A stretch of 23,968 nt of DNA from a virus. Both the position numbers and the translations under genes were made by a program. A model generated the notes under the pieces. The model was not told the origin of the DNA. It saw nothing but the letters and a program-made list of their open reading frames with translations, and ran no database searches. Below, piece after piece: positions 14,112-18,579 of the stretch. Every line of letters begins with the position of its first letter. Position 1 is the stretch's first letter. Where the stretch lies: the IMG/VR virus record IMGVR_UViG_3300046011_000606, positions 1 to 23,968 of that record. One strand, given 5' to 3'.

Positions 14112-14239
14112 ATGATGTCCTGTCATGTGCAAATTTAATTCCCTTGAGTTAATGACCCCCATGTAATACATCTCCACTCAGCGACAGTCACAAAAGGTTA
14201 ACCACTGTGGACCAAGGTTTAGCCATGACATCATATGAT
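14112..14239 (+). promoter_or_regulatory. Promoter/operator region of the MarR-like gene
   Basis: This AT-rich stretch lies between the terminator and the regulator gene. ATGATGTC at 14112-14119 recurs inverted as GACATCAT at 14227-14234, and TGTCATG at 14121-14127 recurs inverted as CATGACA at 14224-14230. A perfect palindrome ATCATATGAT lies at 14230-14239, in the first codons of the regulator. A possible -10 (TAATAC, 14164-14169) has TTGAGT upstream, but only 14 nt away, which is too short for a standard promoter. The symmetric sites suggest self-regulation; this is inference. Confidence 0.4.
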
Positions 14240-14575
14240 ATGAGTGACAGGCGACACTTGGATAAGGTCTCAAGCCTTTTTCAGGCCTTTCGCCAATTAG
14301 ACATCACCATCCCGCTCCAGTTGGCCTACACCTTCATACTCTGTGCCACCTATGAAGGTGAGTCAGTAGGTGACATTGCCAAACGGGCAGGGTTCGCTAC
14401 TTCCACCACCTCCCGCCATATCCTCGACCTTGGGGCTTTTGACCGCAAGAAGAACCCTGGATACGGCCTAGTGGAGACCCGCATCGACCCCATGGAACTG
14501 AGAAGGAAGACCGTCCACTTGACACCCAAGGGACGCAACCTACTTAATCAGATAATCAACACCATGAGGCTCTAG
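14225..14575 (+). CDS. MarR-like winged-helix regulator
   Basis: A 116-aa DNA-binding protein. Residues about 42-72 form a helix-turn-helix (ATYEGESVGDIAKRAG, then TSTTSRHILDLG). The following wing ends with RKTVHLTPKGRNLL, the classic MarR-type closing pattern. ATG 14225 has AAGG 8 nt upstream; a GTG at 14207 with its own AAGG would add six residues. It directly precedes the integrase, whose ATG follows its TAG with no gap, so the two are one operon. No CI- or Cro-like protein is seen, so this is the best candidate for the gene that controls integration or lysogeny. Its target is unknown; excisionase or recombination directionality roles are also possible. Confidence 0.8.
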   Translation: MTSYDMSDRRHLDKVSSLFQAFRQLDITIPLQLAYTFILCATYEGESVGDIAKRAGFATSTTSRHILDLGAFDRKKNPGYGLVETRIDPMELRRKTVHLTPKGRNLLNQIINTMRL

Positions 14576-15769
14576 ATGGCTATCTTCGCAGACAAGAGGG
14601 ACGGTAAGCTGACGGGACGCTACCGTGTGGAACTCCAGCTTGGCGGTCAGCGCCTCAGGAAGCGCTTCGACAGCCTCCAAGAGGCGAAGGATTACGAAGC
14701 AGCCGCCCGTGTCGAAATGGCAAGCGGCAGGATGCCCTCAGAAGCCCGTACACGGCTGGAGAAGGGTCCGGTGGTGTCTACCCTTCAGGAACTGTGCAGG
14801 GCCTGTGAGGGCCATCTGTGGGCTGGGGATGCCTCAGAGCGTCAGGCCCATCAGCGCTTGGAGGGAGCCTGCAAAATCCTTGGTCCCTTAATGTTGATCG
14901 AATCTGTTACAATTGCCGATACTGACCGTTTGGTGAGAGTCCTCAGGGACAAGGGGACGGCCCATGGCACCATAAACCGCTACCTCTCCGCGCTTAATCA
15001 GGCCCTCAAGTGGGCCATCAAGCACAAGCACAGAGCGTCCCCACTCCCCGAGCTTTCGTGGCAGGATGAGGACGAGGGGCGCATCAGGTGGATCACCCCC
15101 GCTGAGGAGGCACGTTTAATCGAACTCCTAGCTCCCTCAGAGGCCCTCGCTGTCTTCGTGTGTATCCGTACTGGCATGAGGCGCGGAGAGCTTCTGGGGC
15201 TTCGTGAGAGGGACGTAGAGCCTACCTGGGTCCACCTGTGGGGCACCCGGACCAAGTCAGGGAAGTCCCGGTCAATCCCCCTGACACCTGAGGTCTTCCT
15301 TGCTCTACAGGAACTCTTCAGGTTGGGCATGCCCACCGTGGAGTCCCTCCGCTACCACTGGAACGCCACCAAGAAGCTCATGGGGCTTGAGGAGGACGAG
15401 GACTTCGTGTTCCATGCCACCCGCCACACGTTCGCTACCCGTGCCGTGCAGGCTGGTGTCCACCCCAGGGTCCTCCAGCGCCTCATGGGCCATAAGCACC
15501 TCTCGACCACCATGAGGTACATGCAGGTCAGCGACCACATGCTCTCAGCCGCAATCCAACAGGTCTCAGACCACATAGGATCGATAGCCAACACATTGAT
15601 CGTGGCCGCTCCCCTTGGGGGTTTACAGGCAGGGGGAAACCCGCTAAATCCCCCAATTCACATTACGCCGGAACGCGACAAAACGCTGGGTAAACAAGGG
15701 CTTAGATCGGATTTAGGTTCCTGTGGGGAAACCCGTGGGGGTTCAAGTCCCTCCGCCCGCACCAAGTAA
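14576..15769 (+). CDS. int: Tyrosine site-specific integrase
   Basis: This 397-aa protein carries all catalytic residues of a tyrosine recombinase: Arg202 (TGMRRGELL), Lys227 (TKSGKS), His280 and Arg283 (HATRHTFATR), His306 (LMGHKHLS) and nucleophile Tyr315 (TMRYMQ). The N-terminal half holds an arm-binding type segment (about 1-50) and a core-binding, SAM-like part (about 68-152). It would join attP to a host tRNA-Leu gene. The last 70 residues go beyond the usual end, and the final 20 or so codons are read from the tRNA-like attP sequence (GSCGETRGGSSPSARTK), with the stop just after the tRNA CCA end. It is coupled to the upstream regulator. Confidence 0.95.
   Translation: MAIFADKRDGKLTGRYRVELQLGGQRLRKRFDSLQEAKDYEAAARVEMASGRMPSEARTRLEKGPVVSTLQELCRACEGHLWAGDASERQAHQRLEGACKILGPLMLIESVTIADTDRLVRVLRDKGTAHGTINRYLSALNQALKWAIKHKHRASPLPELSWQDEDEGRIRWITPAEEARLIELLAPSEALAVFVCIRTGMRRGELLGLRERDVEPTWVHLWGTRTKSGKSRSIPLTPEVFLALQELFRLGMPTVESLRYHWNATKKLMGLEEDEDFVFHATRHTFATRAVQAGVHPRVLQRLMGHKHLSTTMRYMQVSDHMLSAAIQQVSDHIGSIANTLIVAAPLGGLQAGGNPLNPPIHITPERDKTLGKQGLRSDLGSCGETRGGSSPSARTK
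15709..15764 (+). other. attP core: 3' half of a tRNA-Leu(UAG)-type gene
   Basis: These 56 nt can be folded as the 3' part of a tRNA. They include the anticodon loop TTTAGGT (UAG) with its 3' stem TCCTG, a long variable arm with GGG/CCC stem, a T arm with loop TTCAAGT, the 3' acceptor strand CGCCCGC, and ACCA. The 5' half of the anticodon stem is mismatched (expected CAGGA, seen TCGGA) and no D arm lies upstream, so this is not a working tRNA gene. Its place beside an integrase gene marks it as attP. Both sides are phage sequence, so the genome is not integrated here. Confidence 0.9.
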
Positions 15770-15890
15770 ATGAGCGTTTAACTACAAGCACTTAGAGTGT
15801 TCTATTGGGGATGGTTGCCTGGCGGTGACTGTCCCCAAGCTGCTCTCTGGACCCCCTGTGGCGCAGGGTGACGTAAAGAGTCCGAATAAA

Positions 15891-15906
15891 AAATACCTAC
15901 GTATTT
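15891..15906. promoter_or_regulatory. Palindrome, operator candidate
   Basis: AAATACCTACGTATTT is a symmetric site with 6-nt arms AAATAC/GTATTT. It lies 4 nt before a promoter candidate that would drive the RNA polymerase gene. A dimeric repressor site is plausible but untested. Confidence 0.45.
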
Positions 15907-15909
15907 CAC

Positions 15910-15938
15910 TTGCAAATCTGGGGGACTTTCCCTAAATG
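15910..15938 (+). promoter_or_regulatory. Possible host-type promoter for RNA polymerase gene
   Basis: TTGCAA (15910-15915) and TAAATG (15933-15938) are separated by 17 nt, the normal sigma-70 spacing, in the only AT-rich part of the control region. The -10 match is weak. A T7-type polymerase gene needs a host promoter, so one is expected near here. Confidence 0.35.
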
Positions 15939-16098
15939 AAAATGGTTGCCGCAAGGTGATGACGTAAAGGCAAGACAGCCAAATTCCTTATTGGCCTCTA
16001 AGACCCAGAAAGGAAACGATAAAGTGCTTCAGACACCCCCCTTTTGGGGAGACTTCGCAGAGACCAGCCTCAAGTCGCAACAGTTTACCGAGGAGCCG

Positions 16099-18579
16099 AT
16101 GCCGACAGAACTCGAAGAATCGTTAGAACTCAAAGCACTGGAAGACGGCTCTAAGCGTTACCTTAAGTCGCTGGAAGCTTCCTCAAGCAGAAAAGTTCCG
16201 CTTGAAAGAGCTGACTTAAGGCGTGTATTGAAGGAGACCCTCCCTAAGGTATCCCTCCACGTCAGGATGAAATTTGAGGAGGAGCGTAAGGGAAGACACA
16301 GTTTGGCCTATCAGTTGATCAACAAGTTGGACCCAGACCTGATAGCTCTTGCTGGCCTCTCCTGTGCCTTCAGGGTCATCTCCCAACTGAAGACAATGTC
16401 CTCCATGTGTCACATCATAGGGGCCGCTATCGATGACGAACTGTGGGCCGCAAAGCTCTACAAGACAGACCCGAAGCTGGCCAAGCGTATCGTCCAGAAG
16501 GCTACCCGTAACCACGGGAACCTCCAGTATCGCCGGAAGGCTGTGAAGGCCACTGCGAAGACTGAGGGTCACATTTCGTCTATTCTGAGCGACGAGGAGA
16601 AGGTCAAGGTTGGCGGCTTTGTCATGGACTGCATCCTGAACGCTGTTCCTGAGGTGTTCCAGTGCACCCTGCACAAGACCAAGACCACGGCTCACAACTA
16701 CCTGACCCTCACCCCTGAGGTGTCTCAGGAACTGCTGGAACTCCGTGAGGTCCAGTCTTGGATGCACCCTGCCTACAAGCCCATGACCCTTCCTCCCAAG
16801 CCTTGGGTGGGCTTCTGGAATGGCTGCTACCATAACCCGAAGGTGGCCCGCACGGTCACCCTCGTCCGTACCCGCAAGAAGAAGCACATTGCCATCGTTG
16901 AGAAGGCCATCAAGGACGGGACCATGTCTCACTGCCTTGAGGCGCTCAATGCCATCCAGAACACTCGCTGGATGATCAACACCCCCATCCACGACATCGT
17001 TGAGTGGGCCTACGAACAGAACCTGTCCCTCGACAGCTTCCCTCCCCGCCACCACATCCCGAAGGTCCAGTTCCCGGCTGACTACGCCACACTGGACGAG
17101 AAGGCGAAGAAGGGCTGGAGGATCAAGGCGGGCCAGGTCCACCAGCGCAACCGTGGGATCGACTCTGAGCGCATCGTGATGCTTCAGGACATGACCACGG
17201 CCAAGGCACTCTTGGGTGTCCCGTTCTACATTCCCCACAACATGGACTTCCGGGGGCGGGTCTATCCCCTGCCGCACTTCAACCAGCAGAGGGCCGACTA
17301 CGTGAAGGCGCAGCTTCAGTTCGCTGAGGGCCGCGTCCTGACGGAGGCGGGCGTCTACTGGCTGGCAGTCCACCTTGCCAACTGTGGTGACTTCCAGAAG
17401 GTCTCCAAGCAGCCCTTCGACACCCGTGTCCAGTGGGTGGCCGACAACGAGGAGCTTATCTTCGATGTCGCCAGAGACCCCCAGGGCACCTTCAGCCGCT
17501 GGAAGCAGGCTGACAAGCCCTTCAGCTTCGTTGCAGCCTGCCTCGCGTGGTACGGCTACCGCATGGACCCCGAGAACTTCCTGTGTCACCTCCCAGTGGC
17601 CATGGATGGCTCCAACTCAGGCCTTCAGCACTATAGCTGCATGATGCGCTCTGAGAGGGAAGGGGCTCTGGTCAACCTCATGCCCACGGACAAGCCCGCA
17701 GACCTCTACCAGACCGTAGCCAACATGGTGAAGGAGACGGTGGAAGCGGATGTCCTCAAGGGTTCTGAGGTAGCTCAGATCGTCCTCAAGAATGGCGTCA
17801 CCCGGAGCCTCTGCAAGCGGGCCACCATGACCTTCGCGTATTCCAGCGAGGAGTTTGGGTTCCGTGAGCAACTCATGGATGACGTAATGAACCCCTTGGC
17901 CACTGAGATACTCATGGGTAAGCGCACCGCGCACCCCTATGAGATGCTCCGTGAGACCAAGGATGGCGAAGTGCGGATGGATGGGGGCTTCACCGCGGCC
18001 TCCTACATCGCCAAGGCCATCTGGAACGCTGTGAACACCATCGTGACAGATGCCTGCACTGGCATGGCGTTCTTCCGCCGCTGTGCCCAGCTTCTCGCCC
18101 ACGAAGGCAAGGGGCTTGTCTGGGTGACCCCTGTGGGTCTCCCGGTCCTCCACCTGTACCCAGAGTACAAGGCCAAGAGGGTCAAGCTCTTCCTCCACGA
18201 CAGGGAGGTCGAACTGATGACCCGCGAAGACACCGACTCCGTGAACAAGGCCAAGGCTGCTGACGCTGTGTCGCCAAATGTTGTGCATTCACTCGACAGT
18301 GCTGCTTTGATGCTCTGTGTTCTTGATTGCGCTGAAGCTGGGGTGAAGGACTTCTCCCTCATCCACGACAGCTTCGGTGCCCATCCTAACGATACCCAAA
18401 CCATGTATGTGGCGGTCAGACAGTCCCTGGCGAACATGTACGAAGCATATTGCCCATTTGAAGAGATCAGGAGACAGACGTATGCCGCCCTCGACGCGAA
18501 AGAGAAGCTCCCCGCCATCCCAAAAACGGGAAACCTCGACCTCGCCTGCATCCTCGACGCCGACTACGCCTTCGCCTAA
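16099..18579 (+). CDS. T7-type single-subunit RNA polymerase
   Basis: This 826-aa enzyme would transcribe the phage genome from its own promoters. Key parts match T7 RNA polymerase: DFRGRVYPLP, the palm motif with catalytic Asp503 (VAMDGSNSGLQHYS), Lys573 and Tyr581 (KRATMTFAYSS) and the second catalytic Asp757 (IHDSFGA). It ends in DADYAFA, like T7's FAFA-type foot. Asp-to-Lys spacing is 70 residues against 94 in T7, so a surface part is missing. ATG 16099 has GAGGAG just before it. A GTG at 16024 with AGGA 9 nt upstream would give 851 aa and is a real alternative; a TTG at 15946 is not supported. Confidence 0.95.
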   Translation: MPTELEESLELKALEDGSKRYLKSLEASSSRKVPLERADLRRVLKETLPKVSLHVRMKFEEERKGRHSLAYQLINKLDPDLIALAGLSCAFRVISQLKTMSSMCHIIGAAIDDELWAAKLYKTDPKLAKRIVQKATRNHGNLQYRRKAVKATAKTEGHISSILSDEEKVKVGGFVMDCILNAVPEVFQCTLHKTKTTAHNYLTLTPEVSQELLELREVQSWMHPAYKPMTLPPKPWVGFWNGCYHNPKVARTVTLVRTRKKKHIAIVEKAIKDGTMSHCLEALNAIQNTRWMINTPIHDIVEWAYEQNLSLDSFPPRHHIPKVQFPADYATLDEKAKKGWRIKAGQVHQRNRGIDSERIVMLQDMTTAKALLGVPFYIPHNMDFRGRVYPLPHFNQQRADYVKAQLQFAEGRVLTEAGVYWLAVHLANCGDFQKVSKQPFDTRVQWVADNEELIFDVARDPQGTFSRWKQADKPFSFVAACLAWYGYRMDPENFLCHLPVAMDGSNSGLQHYSCMMRSEREGALVNLMPTDKPADLYQTVANMVKETVEADVLKGSEVAQIVLKNGVTRSLCKRATMTFAYSSEEFGFREQLMDDVMNPLATEILMGKRTAHPYEMLRETKDGEVRMDGGFTAASYIAKAIWNAVNTIVTDACTGMAFFRRCAQLLAHEGKGLVWVTPVGLPVLHLYPEYKAKRVKLFLHDREVELMTREDTDSVNKAKAADAVSPNVVHSLDSAALMLCVLDCAEAGVKDFSLIHDSFGAHPNDTQTMYVAVRQSLANMYEAYCPFEEIRRQTYAALDAKEKLPAIPKTGNLDLACILDADYAFA

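Follow-up and report, generated by a model that had tools for sequence, protein, structure and literature searches.

A T7-like phage integrase gene that runs through its probable tRNA-Leu attP core, with a predicted change of C-terminus on integration

Attachment sites that lie within a coding sequence have been described in several groups of mobile elements. In Myxococcus phage Mx8, the open reading frame (ORF) of a tyrosine integrase extends across attP, and integration yields a recombinant int whose 3′ end is replaced (PMC6070905, PMC4701971, PMC4383910), whereby 112 C-terminal residues of Int are exchanged for 13 and the enzyme becomes less active (PMC4701971; PMC6070905). Integrases extending across attP were also treated as an exception by the Islander authors (PMC4383910). 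Streptococcal ICEs in rumA (PMC4701971) likewise carry the att site within the integrase gene, with C-termini that differ between the integrated and excised forms, and archaeal SSV-type suicidal integrases (PMC8371274) have the recombination site inside a gene that integration splits and inactivates. In the integration-dependent immunity of mycobacteriophages (PMC8092301), attP lies in the coding sequence of a repressor, whose C-terminus changes on integration through removal of a degradation tag. Among T7-like temperate phages, HTVC019P, LUZ100, RHEph01 and CRP-118 share the order MarR-like gene, int, attP and RNA polymerase; cyanophages P-SSP7 and S-TIP37 are grouped with the cassette of HTVC019P, LUZ100 and RHEph01, with the same order where checked and a tRNA-Leu target in several. 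Integration has been demonstrated for T7-like cyanophages that carry int and a tRNA-Leu attP (PMC8776855).

Here we describe an integrase gene in IMGVR_UViG_3300046011_000606, a single uncultivated-virus record of IMG/VR, of which the entire stretch of 23,968 nt was analysed (hereafter, the window). Since attP-crossing integrases are documented and this int ORF contains the attP core, as in Mx8, the gene belongs to a known kind, and an integrase C-terminus that changes on integration has already been published for Mx8. The change predicted for this phage is milder: whereas Mx8 loses 112 residues, gains 13 and drops in activity, this integrase would keep 396 of its 397 residues and add a host-derived tail. 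Unlike the rumA elements, with their serine integrases and protein-gene target, the phage has a tyrosine integrase and a probable tRNA target. In contrast to SSV-type integrases, its catalytic part would stay whole, as the presumed crossover segment falls in codons 378–382, beyond the folded domain, whose end lies near residue 344; in contrast to integration-dependent immunity, attP lies in int, and the ORF ends in -ARTK, not -AA. The T7-like temperate cassettes differ in that, where checked, their integrases stop before the tRNA-like core, and the cyanophage cores correspond to the first half of tRNA-Leu, whereas the core of this phage corresponds to the 3′ part. P22 was considered as a further example of int running into its core, which proved wrong for the annotated core, int ending ~30 nt away.

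The int gene (14576–15769, plus strand) encodes a protein of 397 aa, in which PF00589 matches residues 172–320 (E = 5.9e-23; 81.9 bits against a curated cutoff of 27.1) and the residues R202, K227, H280, R283, H306 and Y315 are invariant among 36 aligned sequences. By domain score and the complete R-K-H-R-H-Y set it is a tyrosine recombinase, with the invariant tyrosine, Y315, just within the end of the Pfam domain at residue 320. Its ORF meets no stop until the TAA at 15767–15769, and it passes through a segment of 56 nt, 15709–15764 on the same strand, that reads GGATTTAGG...GCACCA, its last letters being exactly CCA, and equals the 3′ part of a host tRNA-Leu(UAG) from the anticodon stem to CCA. 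The preliminary description had proposed that the int frame runs through the attP core and that its stop lies outside it, 3 nt past the CCA end; the frame is indeed open across 15709–15764, and the TAA lies in phage DNA at exactly that distance. Its estimate of 20 or so core-encoded codons was also right (codons 379–396, 18 codons, lie wholly in the core). It had, however, placed the start of the core at 15650, ~59 nt too far left, 15650–15708 being non-tRNA sequence. A second IMG/VR contig, whose int gene is 100% identical, has the same int/core arrangement and is the only other complete copy of int; the related contig G001 lacks int.

When 52 nt of the segment were searched against bacterial and archaeal genomes, one for each species, exact matches were found in 22 genomes, and all 56 nt were confirmed in 7. 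Nineteen of these genomes are titled as Alphaproteobacteria or a subgroup, two as Pseudomonadota/Proteobacteria and one just as 'bacterium'; the isolate Aestuariivirga litoralis is among them. ARAGORN called tRNA-Leu(UAG) at 21 of the 22 loci, the remaining one being cut off by a contig end. Because the match is exact in 22 genomes, mostly titled Alphaproteobacteria, the segment is very probably the attP core. Phage and hosts diverge upstream of the anticodon stem and share at most 2 nt downstream of CCA. Judged by sequence, the arrangement is typical of an attP core by which the 3′ part of a tRNA would be restored. ARAGORN found no complete tRNA in the window, Rfam gave no meaningful match in the int/attP region, and no second copy of the core was found, pattern searches of the genomes returning single copies. 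Integrase arm sites of the form TTGGGGR/YCCCCAA were also considered, four of the six copies in the window flanking the core; this candidate was dropped because 46 six-letter words cluster as densely somewhere in the window.

The closest relative of this integrase, that of L065 (46%), reads through 42 nt of the 5′ half of tRNA-Leu(UAG), and the only stretch common to both attP sites is GGATTTAGGTTCC (15709–15721, plus strand; int codons 378–382), in the anticodon stem-loop. As the one part shared by a 3′ core and a 5′ core, it is likely to be the crossover segment. Recombination there, at the tRNA-Leu(UAG) site to which the sequence points, would join int to host tRNA sequence that does not differ from the core as far as CCA, beyond which the frame would enter the host flank; this would leave the catalytic domain of Int whole and make its tail host-dependent. 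In the resulting prophage, the whole tRNA-Leu would lie on the polymerase side, and the other side would carry int with the displaced 3′ part of the tRNA, which would run on into the native 3′ flank of the host gene.

The int frame was translated through 30 distinct host flanks, taken from exact cores and from cores with 1–3 mismatches. The phage stop was reproduced by none of these tRNA-Leu(UAG) 3′ flanks (0/30). A host flank with a stop at the same place, which the preliminary description had named as contrary to its proposal, was thus not found, and a different C-terminus is predicted for every candidate host checked. In these flanks the frame runs for 4 to 475 codons (median ~21), and the predicted addition in most hosts is +3 to about +45 residues, appended to an otherwise intact protein. 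In four hosts it would fuse Int in frame to trigger factor, whose gene lies downstream; it spans that whole gene in three and reaches the contig end in one. The proposed difference between the C-termini before and after integration is thus predicted in 30 of 30 flanks; the genome searches gave no integrated copy, which leaves the prophage form a prediction. The 466 genome searches by integrase covered 397 genomes of the candidate order (E 1e-40) and 69 of the family (E 1e-25), limits that would miss distant prophages, and an RNA polymerase search of the family genomes gave no close relative. One record, L028 (IMG/VR 3300043775_000601; 96% identical), begins immediately past the position of the int stop (equivalent to window position 15770), and seven other relatives end exactly on an int stop. 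The latter suggests trimming of proviruses at gene ends, by which L028 may represent a prophage whose host side was cut away.

In an AlphaFold model built with 36 sequences, confidence is high up to residue 344, and pLDDT is below 50 for nearly all of 349–391. The tail (codons 349–397 and stop, 15620–15769, plus strand) is predicted to be disordered and has no conserved sequence; GC3 falls from 0.83 (15326–15595) to 0.53 (15596–15709), coding-like bias being lost in the tail, which reaches past the end of most relatives (nine aligned phage integrases have 290–359 aa). Since the tail is predicted to be disordered and its frame is unconserved between relatives, nothing supports a functional role for it, and the overlap is probably of little consequence.

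The second case that had been named as contrary, related integrases ending before the core, holds in part, as most of them do so. Among the relatives examined, about 29 have a recognisable tRNA piece 6–321 nt past the int stop, against three integrases, those of this phage, L065 and L003, whose ORFs cross such a piece, a rough proportion because the count mixes related sequences and uses simple patterns. L065 reads its tRNA piece in a frame different from that of the phage int, and in L003 (27%) the ORF crosses the 3′ half of an apparent tRNA-Thr in antisense orientation and stops ~10 nt later. tRNA-derived attP cores are thus read as protein in several T7-like integrases, with frame and strand varying, and annotated integrase C-termini and proviruses trimmed at gene ends call for caution. 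This variation, which includes the tRNA half that is read, speaks against selection on the encoded peptide. The L065 core (L065:3624–3665), a tRNA-Leu(UAG) 5′ half, lies within the int ORF. On integration, a complete tRNA would thus be restored as part of the int transcript, and tRNA processing might cleave that message upstream of its stop. The next closest integrases, L066 (41%) and L067 (40%), have unrelated tails ending in -VVAA (L066:3638–3649) and -GIAA (L067:3638–3649). These ends resemble ssrA-like degradation tags, which have been reported for mycobacteriophage integrases.

Taken as a whole, the locus is probably the MarR-int-attP-RNA polymerase cassette of a temperate, T7-like alphaproteobacterial phage, and its core has most likely come to lie in the last int codons by compaction, with no selection on the tail and with its change tolerated. 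This is favoured by a catalytic domain that is complete and conserved before the tail, and by relatives that have no tail or an unrelated one; against it, the three tRNA-crossing integrases are all ~395 aa long, and the overlap is common to the phage and its closest relative L065, which could mean that it is kept. The tRNA-like segment could instead be a captured or degenerate tRNA fragment, the phage integrating elsewhere or nowhere, as the missing integrated copy in the sampled genomes of the candidate order and family would allow; but an identity that is exact from anticodon stem to CCA is far beyond chance, and the segment lies immediately between int and the polymerase gene, the place at which T7-like cyanophages tested by experiment have their tRNA-Leu attP, making this extremely unlikely. 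It is also unlikely that the overlap is a pure coincidence of a stop-free core, not favoured even by compaction, with a tail that is irrelevant or an int that is silent in the lysogen. Estimated from base composition, the chance of an open frame is ~0.5 across the core alone and ~0.13 over the 57 codons of the whole tail, from 15596 to the core end, so the open frame alone is unremarkable, and most relatives stop earlier; yet the overlap recurs in L065 and L003, and this explanation largely coincides with compaction.

The predicted change might also serve an integration-dependent switch like that of Mx8, in which the attP and prophage forms of Int differ in activity or stability through their tails, favouring integration over excision. 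A tail predicted to differ in every host, the precedent of a less active Mx8 enzyme and the recurrence of the overlap in three T7-like integrases speak for such a switch, which we nonetheless consider improbable: here everything up to residue 396 would be kept, with residues added and none removed, the tail is disordered by prediction and unconserved, frames differ among relatives, and an added tail that varies by host gives no defined second form of Int. Less credible still, and very doubtful, is that the host flank provides a host-specific extension of the prophage integrase, including the trigger factor fusion, that alters stability or excision, the stability of lysogeny then being set by the sequence downstream of tRNA-Leu. 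If the tails mattered, the integration-coupled integrase change of the Mx8 type would be extended to T7-like phages and made host-dependent.

The neighbours of int fit the T7-like temperate cassette. Directly upstream, a small ORF (14207–14575, plus strand) gave no Pfam match and probably encodes, by its position and size, a MarR-like regulator of the lysogeny cassette; ORFs annotated as MarR-like occur in the same place with similar size in HTVC019P, RHEph01/21, LUZ100 and CRP-118. The next gene downstream of attP (15946–18579, plus strand) encodes a T7-like single-subunit RNA polymerase (PF00940, E = 2.3e-93), so that int lies between the putative MarR-like gene and this polymerase, with the tRNA-like attP at its 3′ end. 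Besides these, the window encodes a T7-like helicase-primase and an SU10-type capsid protein. At the predicted attL (window 15765–15946), the promoter of the host tRNA-Leu would point at the phage RNA polymerase, ~180 nt past the core. The related contigs L052 and L053 each have, close to their right end, a single 37-nt match to window positions 16020–16055, a repeat that may serve the T7-like polymerase as a phage promoter.

A complete tRNA-Leu gene, on the opposite strand and just upstream of int, is found in many T7-like phages with this integrase family (L055, L056, L057, L068–L071, L073, L075, L091, L104, L129 and L133). Taken alone, match lengths between this tRNA-Leu and the int 3′ region are not above those of shuffles; in LUZ100, L068, L069, L075, L091 and L104 the longest match (7–11 nt) sits on the anticodon. 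The upstream tRNA-Leu with its anticodon match resembles the tRNA-dependent lysogeny of actinobacteriophages (PMC10865867).
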